Assembly (NCBI GenBank): GCA_018223125.1
Contig: JAAEZA010000004.1
Coordinates: 1 to 64,000, forward strand
Reading direction: 5' to 3'
DNA length: 64,000 nt
DNA from: Paracoccaceae bacterium
GTDB lineage: Bacteria > Pseudomonadota > Alphaproteobacteria > Rhodobacterales > Rhodobacteraceae
Positions 15,260 to 54,465 of the stretch are shown piece by piece; the first letter of the stretch is position 1; each line of letters begins with the position of its first letter. Below the pieces are notes generated by a model that was not told the origin of the DNA, searched no databases, and saw only the letters and a program-made list of their open reading frames with translations. A program made the position numbers and the translations under genes.

Positions 15260-15469
15260 ATGGCCCTGGCTCCCAACACTTACGTGGCTCCTTTTGGTGC
15301 CATTGCAACACATACTGTTGTTGCACGTCTCGAAGCAGCATTCTCTGCATTCGTAGAGTGGAACACAAAGCGCAAAACCGTCAAAATCCTGTCCCAGTTG
15401 TCCGATCGTGAACTGAACGACATCGGCCTGATCCGTGGCGATCTTGACAACATCCCGACACGCTTCTGA
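15260..15469 (+). CDS. DUF1127 small basic protein
   Basis: A 69-residue protein with the C-terminal DUF1127 helix pattern LSQLSDRELNDIGLIRGDL (about 45-63). Members are short, Arg/Lys-rich and stress induced; in Rhodobacter sphaeroides one (CcaF1) is an RNA-binding protein encoded just ahead of CcsR small RNAs. AAGGAAAG lies 6 bases upstream of the ATG. An RpoH-type promoter precedes it and two hairpins with CTCCC loops follow it, the same design as at 25.2-26.0 kb. Confidence 0.9.
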   Translation: MALAPNTYVAPFGAIATHTVVARLEAAFSAFVEWNTKRKTVKILSQLSDRELNDIGLIRGDLDNIPTRF

Positions 15470-15479
15470 GCGTAGGTAC

Positions 15480-15574
15480 AAGGCAGCACATTTTCTCCCT
15501 GTTGTGTACTGCCTTCCAGCGGCTTTGATGCCGTAAATGAAAAAGACCGCTGCCCTCCCTCAGCGGTCTTTTTT
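15480..15574 (+). ncRNA. Putative CcsR/cuckoo-like hairpin RNA, single copy
   Basis: Just after the DUF1127 stop comes a hairpin with stem AAGGCAG / CTGCCTT (15480-15515) whose loop reads TTTTCTCCCTGT, a small CGGC/GCCG hairpin at 15519-15532, and then an 11-bp stem (AAAGACCGCTG / CAGCGGTCTTT, 15542-15571) whose loop is CCCTCCCT, followed by T residues. Two consecutive C-rich loops downstream of a DUF1127 gene match the architecture of CcsR / cuckoo RNAs, though the loops lack the full CCTCCTCCC. The last hairpin is also the terminator. Assignment is inference. Confidence 0.5.
15541..15574 (+). terminator. Rho-independent terminator after DUF1127 gene
   Basis: Perfect 11-bp stem AAAGACCGCTG / CAGCGGTCTTT with loop CCCTCCCT and a run of six or more T. 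It closes the DUF1127 transcript and may be the 3' hairpin of a processed RNA. Confidence 0.85.
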
Positions 15575-15651
15575 GCGTTTGGGGCGCTGGTAATGAAATA
15601 GGGCGCACCCGATTAAAGGCCGCCCTTCTAACAGGTCATGTGTGAACCGGC

Positions 15652-24839: not shown

Positions 24840-25157
24840 GTAAACCCTCCGCGCAACATCGCCGCCGCGTATGCCGCACACCACATCACGCAATGAATCA
24901 CTTGGCAATTCGCAAAGGTGGCGAATCTTTGGGAACGGCTGTTTAAAAGGGAAAACGTCCCGTCACTTTCTGTGATCACAAACTGGCAGCAGCGCCGCGC
25001 AAACCCTGCGCAAATAACGGGCAAAGCCGGTCGGAATTGCCCCGTGGCAGCGCAAACATAGACCAAACCCTTCATTTTCAAGGAAAACTGCCTTTCCATT
25101 TATGCATACCCCCTTTGCGCAGAGTTGCGTTGTATCCGGCGGGAGGAATTCATATTG
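24840..25157. other. Upstream region of the DMT transporter and DUF1127 pair
   Basis: No gene. A 10-base palindrome TGTGATCACA sits at about 24971-24980. Weak promoter-like sequences (TTGCGT at 25125 with TTCATA about 17 bases on) lie just ahead of the PhaR-like boxes. I could not find a convincing RpoH-type promoter here, unlike at the 15-kb DUF1127 gene. Confidence 0.45.
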
Positions 25158-25188
25158 TTGCATTGCAGCAAGAAATTCTGCGCTGCAG
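25158..25188 (+). promoter_or_regulatory. Two PhaR-like boxes upstream of the DUF1127 pair
   Basis: TTGCATTGCAG (25158-25168) and CTGCGCTGCAG (25178-25188), 20 bases apart centre to centre, ending 20 bases before the start codon. The second fits CTGC-N3-GCAG exactly and the first has one mismatch. The same kind of pair precedes phaP (53224-53263), and GCATTGCAGCA is shared. PhaR of Rhodobacter/Paracoccus is known to bind such TGC-rich sites. Binding here is inferred. Confidence 0.55.
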
Positions 25189-25208
25189 CAAAACGAAGGA
25201 AAACCGAA

Positions 25209-25439
25209 ATGTCGATCTCTAGCACACACAATGGCACAGCACTCGGCGACCTGAAAACCAAGTTCGCCTCTGCGTTTGCCAAAACCGCCGAGAGCTGGAA
25301 CACGTACCGCCGCAAACGTCAGGCGTACACATCAACTTTTGCCGAGCTTGCAGGCCTCTCTGCCCGCGATCTCGCAGACCTCGGGTTTTCCCGTGGTGAC
25401 ATCAGACGGGTCGCTCGCGAAGCGGCAGAAATGGTATAA
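25209..25439 (+). CDS. DUF1127 small protein, first of pair (CcaF1-like)
   Basis: A 76-residue, Arg-rich protein with the DUF1127 pattern LAGLSARDLADLGFSRGDI in the C-terminal half. The ATG is preceded by GAAGGAAAAC. It stands directly ahead of a second DUF1127 gene and an array of CCTCC-loop RNA hairpins, the arrangement in which CcaF1 of Rhodobacter sphaeroides is encoded with the CcsR RNAs; by analogy it may bind RNA and help processing. Its promoter region carries two PhaR-like boxes. Confidence 0.88.
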   Translation: MSISSTHNGTALGDLKTKFASAFAKTAESWNTYRRKRQAYTSTFAELAGLSARDLADLGFSRGDIRRVAREAAEMV

Positions 25440-25443
25440 GAAC

Positions 25444-25692
25444 ATGAAAACGATCACATACAATAACATCTCCGAAACCGGCTTTGCATCTGTACGGACA
25501 CGCGCTTTCGAAGCAATCGCTTCCGGTTTCAGCGGACTGAAAACACGGGCAGCCGCCTCCTTGCAAAGCCTGCAAACAGCCCGCATGATTTCTGCCCTTC
25601 AAGGCATGAGCAACGAGCAGCTGGATCAAATCGGCGTGAAACGGGCTGACATTCCAGCCTACGCACACCAACTGGTTGTCAACGAGAAGTAA
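25444..25692 (+). CDS. DUF1127-like small protein, second of pair
   Basis: An 82-residue basic protein beginning 4 bases after the first DUF1127 gene. The C-terminal part, LQGMSNEQLDQIGVKRADIP, follows the DUF1127 helix pattern but is more divergent than its neighbour. No clear ribosome site of its own, so it probably relies on translational coupling. The stop is directly followed by hairpins. Confidence 0.8.
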   Translation: MKTITYNNISETGFASVRTRAFEAIASGFSGLKTRAAASLQSLQTARMISALQGMSNEQLDQIGVKRADIPAYAHQLVVNEK

Positions 25693-25700
25693 AACCCAAA

Positions 25701-25720
25701 GCTCCTGCGCAATCAGGAGC
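25701..25720 (+). other. Stem-loop after the DUF1127 pair
   Basis: Perfect 7-bp stem GCTCCTG / CAGGAGC with 6-base loop CGCAAT, 8 bases past the stop codon. No T-run follows, so transcription can continue into the RNA array; it may mark an RNA processing boundary. Confidence 0.55.
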
Positions 25721-25728
25721 AGGTTACA

Positions 25729-25802
25729 AAACGGCGCTTCCTCCCAGATGCCGTTTCGTACAAATGCCGGTCCCCTTTCCTCCTCCCAGGGGGGCCGGTG
25801 TC
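25729..25802 (+). ncRNA. CcsR/cuckoo-type small RNA, unit 1
   Basis: Hairpin 1 has stem AAACGGC / GCCGTTT (25729-25735 / 25750-25756) with loop containing CTTCCTCCC; hairpin 2 (25764-25801) has a stem built on GCCGG / CCGGT with loop TTCCTCCTCCC. This is the anti-Shine-Dalgarno loop signature of CcsR and cuckoo RNAs. It is the most diverged of the three units; the position that is G-C in unit 2 and A-U in unit 3 is a G-U wobble here. Confidence 0.7.
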
Positions 25803-25815
25803 AAAAACAACCGAA

Positions 25816-25894
25816 TACCGCGCGGTCGTTCCTCCCAGATCCCGCTTGGTAAAGACGCCGGTCCCTCTATCCTCCTCCCAGAGGGGCCGGCGTC
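25816..25894 (+). ncRNA. CcsR/cuckoo-type small RNA, unit 2
   Basis: Hairpin 1 (25816-25851) pairs TACC with GGTA and GCGG with CCGC around the loop TCGTTCCTCCCAGAT. Hairpin 2 (25854-25894) has the perfect stem GACGCCGG / CCGGCGTC extended by CCCTCT / AGAGGG, loop ATCCTCCTCCC. A short A-rich linker (CAAAAAAACAACCGAA) joins it to unit 3, a likely cleavage site. Confidence 0.75.
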
Positions 25895-25909
25895 AAAAAA
25901 ACAACCGAA

Positions 25910-25988
25910 TACCGCGCGGTCGTTCCTCCCAGATCCCGCTTGGTAAAGACACCGGTCCCACTATCCTCCTCCCAGAGGGGCCGGTGTC
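25910..25988 (+). ncRNA. CcsR/cuckoo-type small RNA, unit 3
   Basis: Hairpin 1 (25910-25945) is identical to that of unit 2, 94 bases away. Hairpin 2 (25948-25988) has stem GACACCGG / CCGGTGTC: relative to unit 2 both partners of one pair changed (G-C to A-U at 25951/25985), so the stem is preserved by compensation. Loop contains ATCCTCCTCCC. The stretch 25989-26093 after it holds a second CCTCCC and a CTTTTT run but no further full unit. Confidence 0.75.
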
Positions 25989-26093
25989 ACCTCCCACCTT
26001 CCTTTTTCGTTGTCCCGGACCGTTGCGTTAATATCTTTCGCCAACGCACCAGCGATGCTACATGCATTCACACAAACAACGGGAACAGGCTCC

Positions 26094-27344
26094 ATGAACG
26101 AACTTCAGATTGCATCCTTGCTGATCGTCCTTGCAGGGGTGTTCGGCGCCATAAACTATCTGTTCTTCAAACTCCCTTCCGCCATTGGCATCATGATTGT
26201 CGCCCTGATGGCCTCGTTGGCGATCATGGGGGTGGACGCGGTTTATCCCGCGCTCGACATTCGCGATACGGTGCGCAGCTTTGTGATTGATCTGGAATTT
26301 TCAACCGCACTGCTGGAAGGGATGCTTGGTCTTCTGCTCTTTGCAGGTGCGCTTCATGTCAAGATCGGCGATCTGCGGCAGCAGGCCTGGGTGGTTGTGT
26401 TGATGGCAACCATCGGCGTCGGCCTGTCCACAGCCATTGTCGGCGGCGCGGTGACTTTCGCCCTTGGCGTGCCGCTGATGATCGCGCTGGTATTCGGCGC
26501 GCTGATTTCCCCGACCGATCCGGTCGCGGTTTTGGGCGTGTTGCGCGCTGCCAACCTGCGCAAGGAACTGGAAACCAAAATCGCCGGAGAAAGCCTGTTC
26601 AACGACGGTGTGGCCTATGTGGTTTTCCTGATCCTTGTCGGTCTGGCCTTTCCAAGCGGCCATGACACCCACGGCGCCACACTCTCCGGAGCCTTTCTGC
26701 TGTTCGGGCAGGAAGCTTTCGGCGGCGCAGCCCTTGGCGGTATTCTCGGCTATCTGACCTTTGCGGTTATGCGCCGGATTGACGATTACCCGCTGGAGGT
26801 TCTGCTCTCTCTCGGGCTGGCCTTTGGCGGATACCAACTGGCTACGTATTTTCACCTGTCAGGGCCGATTTTCGCAGTTGTCGCCGGACTTTTTATCGGG
26901 GATGTCGGGGTCAAATACGGCATGAGCGAGGAAACCCGCAAATACCTCGATGCCTTCTGGTCCCTGATCGACGAAATCCTGAACGCGATCCTGTTCCTGC
27001 TGATCGGTGTCGAAGTGTTTGCGGTTGCCTTCAACATGGATGCGCTCCGGGCCGGCTTGCTGGCGATTGCCGTCGCTCTGGTGGCGCGGCTGGTGGCTGT
27101 CTCCGTGCCGGTCCTGATGCTCAAACCGTTCCGGACATTCCCCCGCGATGTAATCCCGATCATGACATGGGGCGGGCTGAAGGGCGGGATTTCCGTGGCT
27201 TTGGTGCTGACCCTGCCGGATACGGAATGGAAACCCCTGCTCCTGACCATGACCTATATGGTTGTGCTGTTCAGCATCATCATTCAGGGCCTGACCATCG
27301 CACCGCTGGCCCGCCGTCTGGGGCGCACACCGGAACTGCTTTGA
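26094..27344 (+). CDS. NhaP-type sodium/proton antiporter (CPA1 family)
   Basis: A 416-residue inner-membrane exchanger with about twelve helices. Family marks include GALISPTDPVAVLGVLR and AGESLFNDGVAYV, whose Asp residues line the ion site in NhaP proteins, and a C-terminal WGGLKGGISVALVLTLP. No cytosolic regulatory domain. I start at MNELQIASLL; an ATG at 26055 is possible. It probably exports Na+ in a marine host. It follows the small-RNA array on the same strand and could be reached by read-through. Confidence 0.88.
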   Translation: MNELQIASLLIVLAGVFGAINYLFFKLPSAIGIMIVALMASLAIMGVDAVYPALDIRDTVRSFVIDLEFSTALLEGMLGLLLFAGALHVKIGDLRQQAWVVVLMATIGVGLSTAIVGGAVTFALGVPLMIALVFGALISPTDPVAVLGVLRAANLRKELETKIAGESLFNDGVAYVVFLILVGLAFPSGHDTHGATLSGAFLLFGQEAFGGAALGGILGYLTFAVMRRIDDYPLEVLLSLGLAFGGYQLATYFHLSGPIFAVVAGLFIGDVGVKYGMSEETRKYLDAFWSLIDEILNAILFLLIGVEVFAVAFNMDALRAGLLAIAVALVARLVAVSVPVLMLKPFRTFPRDVIPIMTWGGLKGGISVALVLTLPDTEWKPLLLTMTYMVVLFSIIIQGLTIAPLARRLGRTPELL

Positions 27345-53223: not shown

Positions 53224-53263
53224 CTGCATTGCAGCATTATTTCATTGAAATGCCGCAATGCAG
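53224..53263 (+). promoter_or_regulatory. PhaR-box pair upstream of phaP
   Basis: CTGCATTGCAG (53224-53234), an exact CTGC-N3-GCAG site, and CCGCAATGCAG (53253-53263), one mismatch. The second lies inside the spacer of the phaP promoter (53245-53273), where bound PhaR would block RNA polymerase. PhaR itself is encoded just downstream. Confidence 0.7.
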
Positions 53264-53273
53264 CATCTATATC
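53245..53273 (+). promoter_or_regulatory. Sigma-70 type promoter of phaP
   Basis: TTGAAA (53245-53250), a 17-base spacer and TATATC (53268-53273), 57 bp before the phaP start. An alternative TTGACA at 53210 lies over the phaC stop. Confidence 0.5.
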
Positions 53274-53330: not shown

Positions 53331-53756
53331 ATGGCAAACCAAGACTTCGACTTCGCAAAAGCAACTGAAGATTTCTTCGCTGCTTTCAAAATCGACACAA
53401 AAACGTTTGACGACGCGACCAAGAATGTTGCCGAGTTCAACGTGAAAATGGGCAAGATTGCGCTGGCGGCTGCAAAGAAAAATGCAGAACTGACCAACAC
53501 ATGGACAGCCGAAACACTGAAATCCTTCGAAGCTGCGAACAAGGTTCAAAAAGACCCTTCCGCTTACACAACCATTGCTTCCGATTTCGCATCTGCACAA
53601 GCACAGGCCCTGCCAGAAAAACTGGCTGCTTACGCTGAAGTGGCAAAATCTGCCCAACTGGAAGCTGTTGAACTGTTCGTTGCCGCTGGCAAGGACCTTC
53701 AAGCTGAAGTTGCTGCTGCGACCAAAGATGTCACAGCTAAAGCGAAAGCTGCCTAA
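53331..53756 (+). CDS. phaP: Phasin (PHB granule-associated protein)
   Basis: A 141-residue Ala/Lys-rich amphipathic helical protein that coats PHB granules (FDFAKATEDFFAAFKIDTKTF at the start; Phasin_2 type). AAAGGA precedes the ATG. Located between phaC and phaR, with two PhaR boxes upstream and its own terminator, as expected for a PHB-induced gene. Confidence 0.93.
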   Translation: MANQDFDFAKATEDFFAAFKIDTKTFDDATKNVAEFNVKMGKIALAAAKKNAELTNTWTAETLKSFEAANKVQKDPSAYTTIASDFASAQAQALPEKLAAYAEVAKSAQLEAVELFVAAGKDLQAEVAAATKDVTAKAKAA

Positions 53757-53904: not shown

Positions 53905-54465
53905 ATGACCAACACGATTTTGATCAATCGCTATGCAAGCCGCCGGCTGTATAACACGCAGACCAGCGAATATGTGACGCTTGACGAAATCGCGGAACTG
54001 ATCCGGCAGGGCAACGATGTCGAGATCAAGGACCGCAAAACAGGCGAGGATCTGACCCGCCAGTTTCTGTTGCAGATCATCACCGAACAGGAAAGCAAGG
54101 GTGAAAACGTATTGCCCGTCAATGTGTTGACGGGTCTTGTACGCTCTTACAGCACCGCCGCCCAAGGGGTGCTGCCGGATTTCCTGTCCAAATCCTACGA
54201 AATGTTTTCCGAACAGCAGGCCGCCATGATGGAACGGATTCCCGGTATCGGTTCGGGCATGGGGGCTGGCGCCAACTGGCAGAAACAGCAGGCAGAACTG
54301 ATGCAGTCCATGATGGCCGCATGGATGCCGCAACTGCAAAACAGCGCCGCTGCATCGCAAAAAGAAGCCGAGGCCAAACCCGATCCGAAATCCGAAACGG
54401 ACGAAGAACTCTCTGCTGTGAAACAACAACTGGCAGAGCTGATGAAAAAAGTTGAAGGACTTTAA
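53905..54465 (+). CDS. phaR: PHB synthesis repressor PhaR
   Basis: DNA-binding sensor of PHB that represses phasin genes and is released when granules form. The 186 residues begin with the conserved PHB/PHA accumulation regulator domain INRYASRRLYNTQTSEYVTL, followed by a second domain (LPVNVLTGLVRSYS) and a Gln/Met-rich, helical tail ending in a coiled coil. CTGC and GCAG half-sites 8 bases apart lie about 30 bp upstream, a weak hint of autoregulation. Confidence 0.95.
   Translation: MTNTILINRYASRRLYNTQTSEYVTLDEIAELIRQGNDVEIKDRKTGEDLTRQFLLQIITEQESKGENVLPVNVLTGLVRSYSTAAQGVLPDFLSKSYEMFSEQQAAMMERIPGIGSGMGAGANWQKQQAELMQSMMAAWMPQLQNSAAASQKEAEAKPDPKSETDEELSAVKQQLAELMKKVEGL

Follow-up and report, generated by a model that had tools for sequence, protein, structure and literature searches.

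What kind of RNA is encoded by the tandem array that follows two small genes in this Paracoccaceae genome, what may switch it on, and what might it control? These questions were addressed in the 64,000-nucleotide stretch of DNA that was analysed (the window), in the rest of the genome and in genomes of related bacteria.

Array anatomy, covariation and RNA family

The tandem array of three anti-Shine-Dalgarno-loop RNAs that had been predicted is present: three two-hairpin units with CCUCC loops occupy 25725-25988 on the + strand, with measured repeat spacings of 91-94 nucleotides. Unit 1 (25725-25802) and unit 2 (25816-25894) were delimited by folding against shuffles and by covariance-model matches, and unit 3 (25910-25988), also with two hairpins and anti-Shine-Dalgarno loops, carries an A-A mismatch in its second stem (columns 51-67). 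The loops are identical across the units, UUCCUCCC in the first hairpin and UCCUCCUCCC in the second, longer one, while units 2 and 3, but not unit 1, have an A ahead of the second loop (AUCCUCCUCCC). In every case the native sequence gives a better fold than any of its 200 dinucleotide shuffles (z -3.55, -5.23 and -3.38 for units 1, 2 and 3). A leader hairpin (25701-25720, + strand; fold z -3.79 for 25690-25728) lies between the second gene and the array. Downstream is a sodium/hydrogen exchanger gene; the nearest T run stands about 14 nucleotides beyond the last array stem, and a scan of 25000-26150 found no intrinsic terminator 3' of the array on the + strand.

The original prediction took one varying stem pair as direct evidence of selection on RNA pairing. 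The pair itself exists, being G-U, G-C and A-U in units 1, 2 and 3 (columns 42-76), but the claim was overstated, as one pair in one genome is weak on its own, and unit 3 breaks the second-stem pair at columns 51-67. A nine-unit alignment from three species, in which units other than unit 3 also have broken cells, is more informative: 94.0% of cells are paired, compared to 41-51% when the partner is slid by 1-3 columns. Five pairs are changed on both sides, a number reached by 14 of 500 shuffles, and the covariation score is reached by 1 of 500, with the caveat that related sequences may exceed shuffles even without structure. Covariation thus supports the two-hairpin fold, and it is the nine-unit set, not the single pair, that carries the case.

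The closest named relatives, Amylibacter cionae m18 (G031) and Neptunicoccus sediminis CY02 (G004), have kept the locus with six and three units, respectively. Copies 2 and 3 of the present array agree at 97% over 93 nucleotides, in line with the near-identity first reported for them, and the recent duplication or gene conversion proposed on that basis is supported from two sides. Units 3-6 of A. cionae are identical across the 79-nucleotide unit, and units 2 and 3 here, with three differing positions, are closer to each other than to A. cionae units 2-6 (4-8 differences).

Assignment to a known family depends on how Rfam thresholds are read. At gathering scores, Rfam gave no match in the 64,000-nucleotide window. 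The best CcsR1 (RF02791) score was 28.6 bits (E 1.2e-4 in 1,201 bases) against a gathering score of 65.3, and the array is therefore CcsR-like rather than a formal RF02791 member; the ar14 model (RF02344) scored 39.4 bits against 58.8. The best of 15 related loci scored 57.1 against 58.8, and all of them stayed under the gathering scores. Among 295 genomes of the family, 243 matched CcsR1 at E<=0.001 and 10 passed the cut-off, compared to one match, under the cut-off, in 14 control genomes. Since the RF02791 gathering score excludes 233 of the 243 matching genomes, annotation at that score would miss most such RNAs in the family. The expectation that a covariance model would lift the region above background was borne out in part: a model built from the array's own units scored far above it, which is circular, and the Rfam models were significant but below their cut-offs.

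The units, of about 80 nucleotides with CCUCC-type-loop hairpins and a DUF1127 gene directly upstream, have the features of the CcsR/cuckoo (CIN1) group. Members of ar14 have three hairpins with CCUCCUCCC in each, whereas there are two per unit here, the first with UUCCUCCC, inside a DUF1127 operon. By structure and context, then, the array is a cuckoo/CcsR-type locus below the Rfam cut-offs, and the parallel drawn earlier with CcsR1-4 behind ccaF1 and with the cuckoo RNAs holds on structure, context and these sub-threshold matches. It is not a new kind of RNA, and the first reading was right in kind. The CcsR RNAs, the cuckoo family and CcaF1 were reportedly established in papers of 2015 and 2021.

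The two-gene operon and its double box

Two DUF1127 genes had been predicted before the array. Gene 1 (25209-25439, + strand; 76 aa) belongs to the family without difficulty (PF06568, 44.2 bits; cut-off 23.3). Gene 2 (25444-25692, + strand; 82 aa) scores 18.9 bits, under the same cut-off, and is therefore better described as a divergent paralogue than as a plain member. Its probable descent from DUF1127 is supported by its homologues, 8 of 9 of which, when aligned, match DUF1127 at E<0.1, and by a profile comparison with the gene 1 type (probability 89.8). NCBIfam has no name for either gene. A gene 2 profile gave 25 matches in 18 of the 295 family genomes, and many lower-scoring matches are simply other DUF1127 proteins. 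One or more CTCC-loop hairpins lie within 600 nucleotides after the gene at 11 of these 25 loci, three of which have weak or short CTCC loops only (L214, in its second hairpin, L215 and L226), and none was found at the other 14; in total there are 22 hairpins after the genes and two in equal upstream stretches. A gene-1-type protein precedes the gene at no fewer than 7 of the 25 loci, a lower bound because the motif search missed the gene pair studied here. Clear cases of the two-gene form outside the clade occur in G045 (two loci), G108, G127, G264 and G299, and only the gene-2-type frame was seen at L046, L038 and L041. Another genome, G228, has four gene-2-type DUF1127 proteins (L218, L229, L232, L233), three of them clustered in about 1.2 kb, and no anti-Shine-Dalgarno hairpins were found after these genes.

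The operon leader contains two YTGCNNYGCAGCA boxes starting at 25158 and 25178. Both were found by pattern searches, resemble PhaR boxes and are identical in the two relatives: box 1, TTGCATTGCAGCAA, at 25158-25171 and box 2, CTGCGCTGCAGCAA, at 25178-25191, both on the + strand. A promoter is tentatively proposed at 25130-25158 (+ strand; TTGTAT, 17 nucleotides, TATTGT), as it was read by eye from aligned related promoters and a sigma-70 consensus scan at the operon found none. When the promoters of the array and of the solo RNA described below are aligned by eye, the start of box 1 coincides with the end of a possible -10 element. Between the two proposed promoter elements (25141-25148) lies a GGGAGGAA motif with complementarity to loop 1; it is not kept in the relatives and was set aside. 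Further upstream, between the operon and a divergent EamA gene, a TGTGATCACA palindrome (24971-24980) is kept in three species; we take it to be perhaps a CRP/FNR-type site.

Single boxes with at most one mismatch occur six times in the window, compared to 1.21 expected, and none of 100 shuffles reached six. With an AA end, the single box has eight matches in the genome, two of them here, and neither a phasin-like gene nor an anti-Shine-Dalgarno RNA was seen at the other six, so the double box was used instead. The strict double box is found at exactly three places in the genome, namely the array operon, a phasin-like gene and a solo anti-Shine-Dalgarno RNA (C26:24642), and the trio is repeated in both relatives, the three genomes forming one clade. 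Under a looser rule of one mismatch per box, 656,370 strand-bases of other loci in the genome yielded only four pairs, all at the site of the solo RNA.

The phasin-like copy of the double box (53224-53265, + strand; pattern searches) precedes a gene of 141 aa (53331-53756, + strand; PF09361 17.5 bits, cut-off 24.9) that lies between phaC, a TIGR01838 match, and phaR (53905-54465, + strand), the polyhydroxyalkanoate synthesis repressor (TIGR01848 142.9 bits, cut-off 109.45; PF07879, PF05233). The solo RNA (L013 1450-1525, corresponding to C26:24724-24799) has two hairpins with the double box upstream, scores 35.8 bits with model R1 and is kept in A. cionae and N. sediminis. Its neighbours are presumably LysR-type and EamA-type reading frames.

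Across 148 genomes, the strict double box is present in 43 and the reversed pattern in none. The 65 readings correspond to 56 distinct places, 55 of which were classified: 32 border a phasin-like gene, as labelled by our own profile from four sequences (the Pfam Phasin_2 cut-off was passed by one of three checked), seven a DUF1127 gene, five anti-Shine-Dalgarno hairpins and 11 something else. Six of these 11 lie outside the family, which leaves 49 family loci (32, 7, 5 and 5). The 56th place, a second site at L258, likewise precedes a phasin-like protein. Among the five remaining family loci, L268 and L280 lead into anti-Shine-Dalgarno hairpins by reading, L291 leads into a small protein with no family assignment, and no label was given to L264 or L267. 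At L280 (genome G110), the double box is followed by a CCUCCUCCCCC-loop hairpin with a T run and then by a gene resembling a transporter substrate-binding protein, so that an anti-Shine-Dalgarno RNA adjoins a gene of a likely target class.

Under the looser rule, boxes are found at 11 gene-2-type loci with anti-Shine-Dalgarno hairpins (the present one, G031, G004, G005, G045 twice, G108, G127 twice, G264 and G299) and are absent from four (L022, L038, L041, L230); at L215, where the hairpin is weak, boxes are missing, and L219 has boxes with no hairpin found. None was found at 21 other CcsR-type loci, which comprise a set of 11, where a DUF1127 gene is listed for nine, and a set of ten from the 295-genome CcsR1 search, two of them incomplete. 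The wiring of the array seems to be what is new here, judged from sequence: a double box that it has in common with phasin-like genes and with the solo anti-Shine-Dalgarno RNA, in several genera, which seems to set this branch apart from the other CcsR-type loci examined.

PhaR is the candidate regulator. The genome has phaR, and TGC-rich PhaR-type boxes are shared with the phasin-like gene. PhaR of Paracoccus denitrificans and R. sphaeroides is reported to recognise repeated TGC sequences (PMC10888616), and the Sinorhizobium meliloti PhaR motif is described as containing YGCRNYGCR (PMC12542648), which the leader boxes fit in our own reading. Sequestration of PhaR by PHB relieves its repression, according to the same source (PMC12542648). 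We infer that PhaR would bind the boxes. Among the publications that the literature search listed, from a collection with a minority of the subscription literature, none connected PhaR with DUF1127 or with loci of the CcsR type, which is no proof that such a report is absent.

An ordinary stress-induced CcsR operon, with an RpoH-type promoter answering oxidative and heat stress and with boxes that are incidental or minor, would explain the architectural likeness to R. sphaeroides, where ccaF1-CcsR1-4 is described as having an RpoHI/RpoHII promoter (PMC10253847). It would leave unexplained why the double box is kept across genera at these loci, stands otherwise mostly before phasin-like genes and is missing from all 21 other CcsR-type loci, and we regard it as unlikely.

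Related elements were also seen elsewhere in the genome. Eight further matches to TCCTCCTCCC include the clear solo RNA (C26) and three (C5, C10, C43) that overlap GGGAGGA-ATG sites on the opposite strand. At C29 (L014, minus strand, about 1490-1560), a short hairpin whose loop carries UCCUCCUCCCC stands ahead of a strong terminator-like stem and is perhaps a 3' UTR anti-Shine-Dalgarno element; the remaining matches showed no such hairpin by eye. A DUF1127 gene in the window (15260-15469) is followed by a UUCUCCC-loop hairpin (15480-15515) and a terminator-like CCCUCCC-loop hairpin (about 15540-15574); this locus (15260-15575) scores 17.6 bits with model R1 (E 0.067) and has no double box. C27 (L001, minus strand, about 1130-1310), which lies immediately before a DUF1127 gene, has three CUCCC-type-loop hairpins with a T-rich end. 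It scores 35.9 bits with ar14, under the cut-off, and likewise has no double box.

Putative targets and the proposed circuit

The complement of UCCUCCC, GGGAGGA, is found 3-9 nucleotides before an ATG at 72 places in the genome, compared to four for the reversed pattern; for the two control classes (AAGGAGG or AAGGAGA), the reversed patterns number 11 against 33 and 25 against 96. The 72 sites gave 71 distinct proteins, 13 of which were dropped as shorter than 60 aa, leaving 58 to be scanned. Controls came from 60 of 129 sites, 30 out of the 33 in one class and 30 out of the 96 in the other, with 12 proteins dropped by the same rule and 48 scanned. Among the best 25 of 63 families, substrate-binding families account for 23 of the 58 proteins, a count in which one protein may appear twice (DctP 11, Peripla_BP_6 4, SBP_bac_1 3, TctC 3, NMT1_3 1 and Peripla_BP_4 1). 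DctP accounts for 2 of the 48 controls among the best 25 of 76 families, where single matches lower down are possible, alongside three ABC ATPases and one permease family. The difference (23/58 vs 2/48) has a p value of 1.6e-5 for the best 25 families of each list. The GGGAGGA set also includes five AMP-binding enzymes, an E1 dehydrogenase with a transketolase-like partner, and CoxG.

Such sites do not mark genomes with the array. They occur in all 61 genomes searched. The three array genomes have about 18-20 sites per Mb by our own division, a density that is equalled in G025 of the same genus, nearly reached in G023, and exceeded in G034 and G036 from outside the genus; G025, G034 and G036 have no R1 match.

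The reading that we favour, with moderate confidence, joins these elements into one circuit. A single transcript would encode both small DUF1127-type proteins and the three anti-Shine-Dalgarno RNAs, and PhaR would occupy the two boxes, which start where the proposed -10 element ends. As PHB accumulates, PhaR would be drawn to the polymer, and the operon, the phasin gene and the solo RNA would be released together. The transcript would then be cut into RNAs of about 80 nucleotides, probably by RNase E and with modulation by the DUF1127 proteins, as for CcsR. The UCCUCCC loops would base-pair with ribosome-binding sites of the GGGAGGA type, many of which precede transporter substrate-binding proteins, and this pairing would lower uptake while stores are full. 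What the sequences show directly is the anatomy, the conserved pairing, the shared boxes and the enrichment of complementary sites; binding by PhaR, processing, and the repression of targets and its direction are predicted.

Could the enrichment arise otherwise? PhaR might control the RNAs while their main targets lie elsewhere, in central carbon or PHB metabolism, and the GGGAGGA sites might reflect other anti-Shine-Dalgarno RNAs or translation strength. The presence of sites in every genome searched and before enzymes would agree with this, as would the report that CcsR1-4 target flhR mRNA and affect pyruvate dehydrogenase (PMC8307010). The dominance of substrate-binding families (best 25 of 63) argues otherwise, as does the precedent of the ar14 member NfeR1, described as silencing periplasmic transporter components through its anti-Shine-Dalgarno loop motif (PMC10746234); the probability of this alternative is judged to be low. 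Least probable is an array that mainly binds its own DUF1127 proteins as a sponge or feedback element rather than pairing with mRNA: CcaF1 is described as binding RNA and altering CcsR maturation (PMC10253847, PMC8307010) and DUF1127 genes adjoin hairpins here and in several genera, but the solo RNA is kept in three species with no DUF1127 gene seen within 450 nucleotides of its boxes, and DUF1127 proteins may, as reported, work through protein contacts (PMC12501420).

It is conceivable, and put forward more tentatively, that this circuit of PHB-titrated PhaR and uptake-curbing RNAs belongs to a satiety circuit in part of the Rhodobacteraceae, in which PHB, through PhaR, frees DUF1127/anti-Shine-Dalgarno operons and solo RNAs. 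Together these would silence, at GGGAGGA sites, the translation of dozens of uptake proteins, and tandem duplication of units would set the dose. CcsR-like RNAs occur in most genomes of the family (243 of 295), and RpoH is the control described for the operon of R. sphaeroides. Control of this branch by PhaR, if real, would connect carbon storage with nutrient uptake through a short RNA-based route. In the host, a marine bacterium, nutrient uptake may be lowered by the array RNAs in response to stored carbon. In S. meliloti grown in rich medium, 30% of PhaR-activated genes are reported to concern transport, yet the motif is reported to precede just seven activated genes (PMC12542648), a gap that an indirect PhaR route of this sort could fill.

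Comparison with known systems

The nearest known system is CcsR1-4/ccaF1 of R. sphaeroides (RF02791; CIN1, cuckoo), which likewise consists of tandem two-hairpin CCUCC-loop RNAs after a DUF1127 gene. As described, CcsR1-4 are cut by RNase E from the ccaF1 transcript, which has the RpoHI/RpoHII promoter and a Rho-independent terminator (PMC10253847, PMC8625941). The present locus differs in its three units (six and three in the relatives), its second, divergent DUF1127 gene, its double PhaR-like box and its Rfam score under the cut-off, and no intrinsic terminator was found on the + strand. NfeR1/ar14 (RF02344) shares the anti-Shine-Dalgarno loops and, as seen above, the array matches its model below the cut-off.

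On the regulatory side, S. meliloti offers a parallel in MmgR, an sRNA with a predicted anti-Shine-Dalgarno loop that is reported to be repressed by the PhaR homologue AniA (PMC7143759, PMC12542648). MmgR differs in being a single Hfq-dependent RNA of 77 nucleotides in the ar8 family, and the available text of these sources describes no DUF1127 operon or array for it. With the phasin genes of the PhaR regulon, finally, the locus shares the double box that stands at phasin-like genes; what differs here is the putative controlled product, an array of anti-Shine-Dalgarno RNAs.
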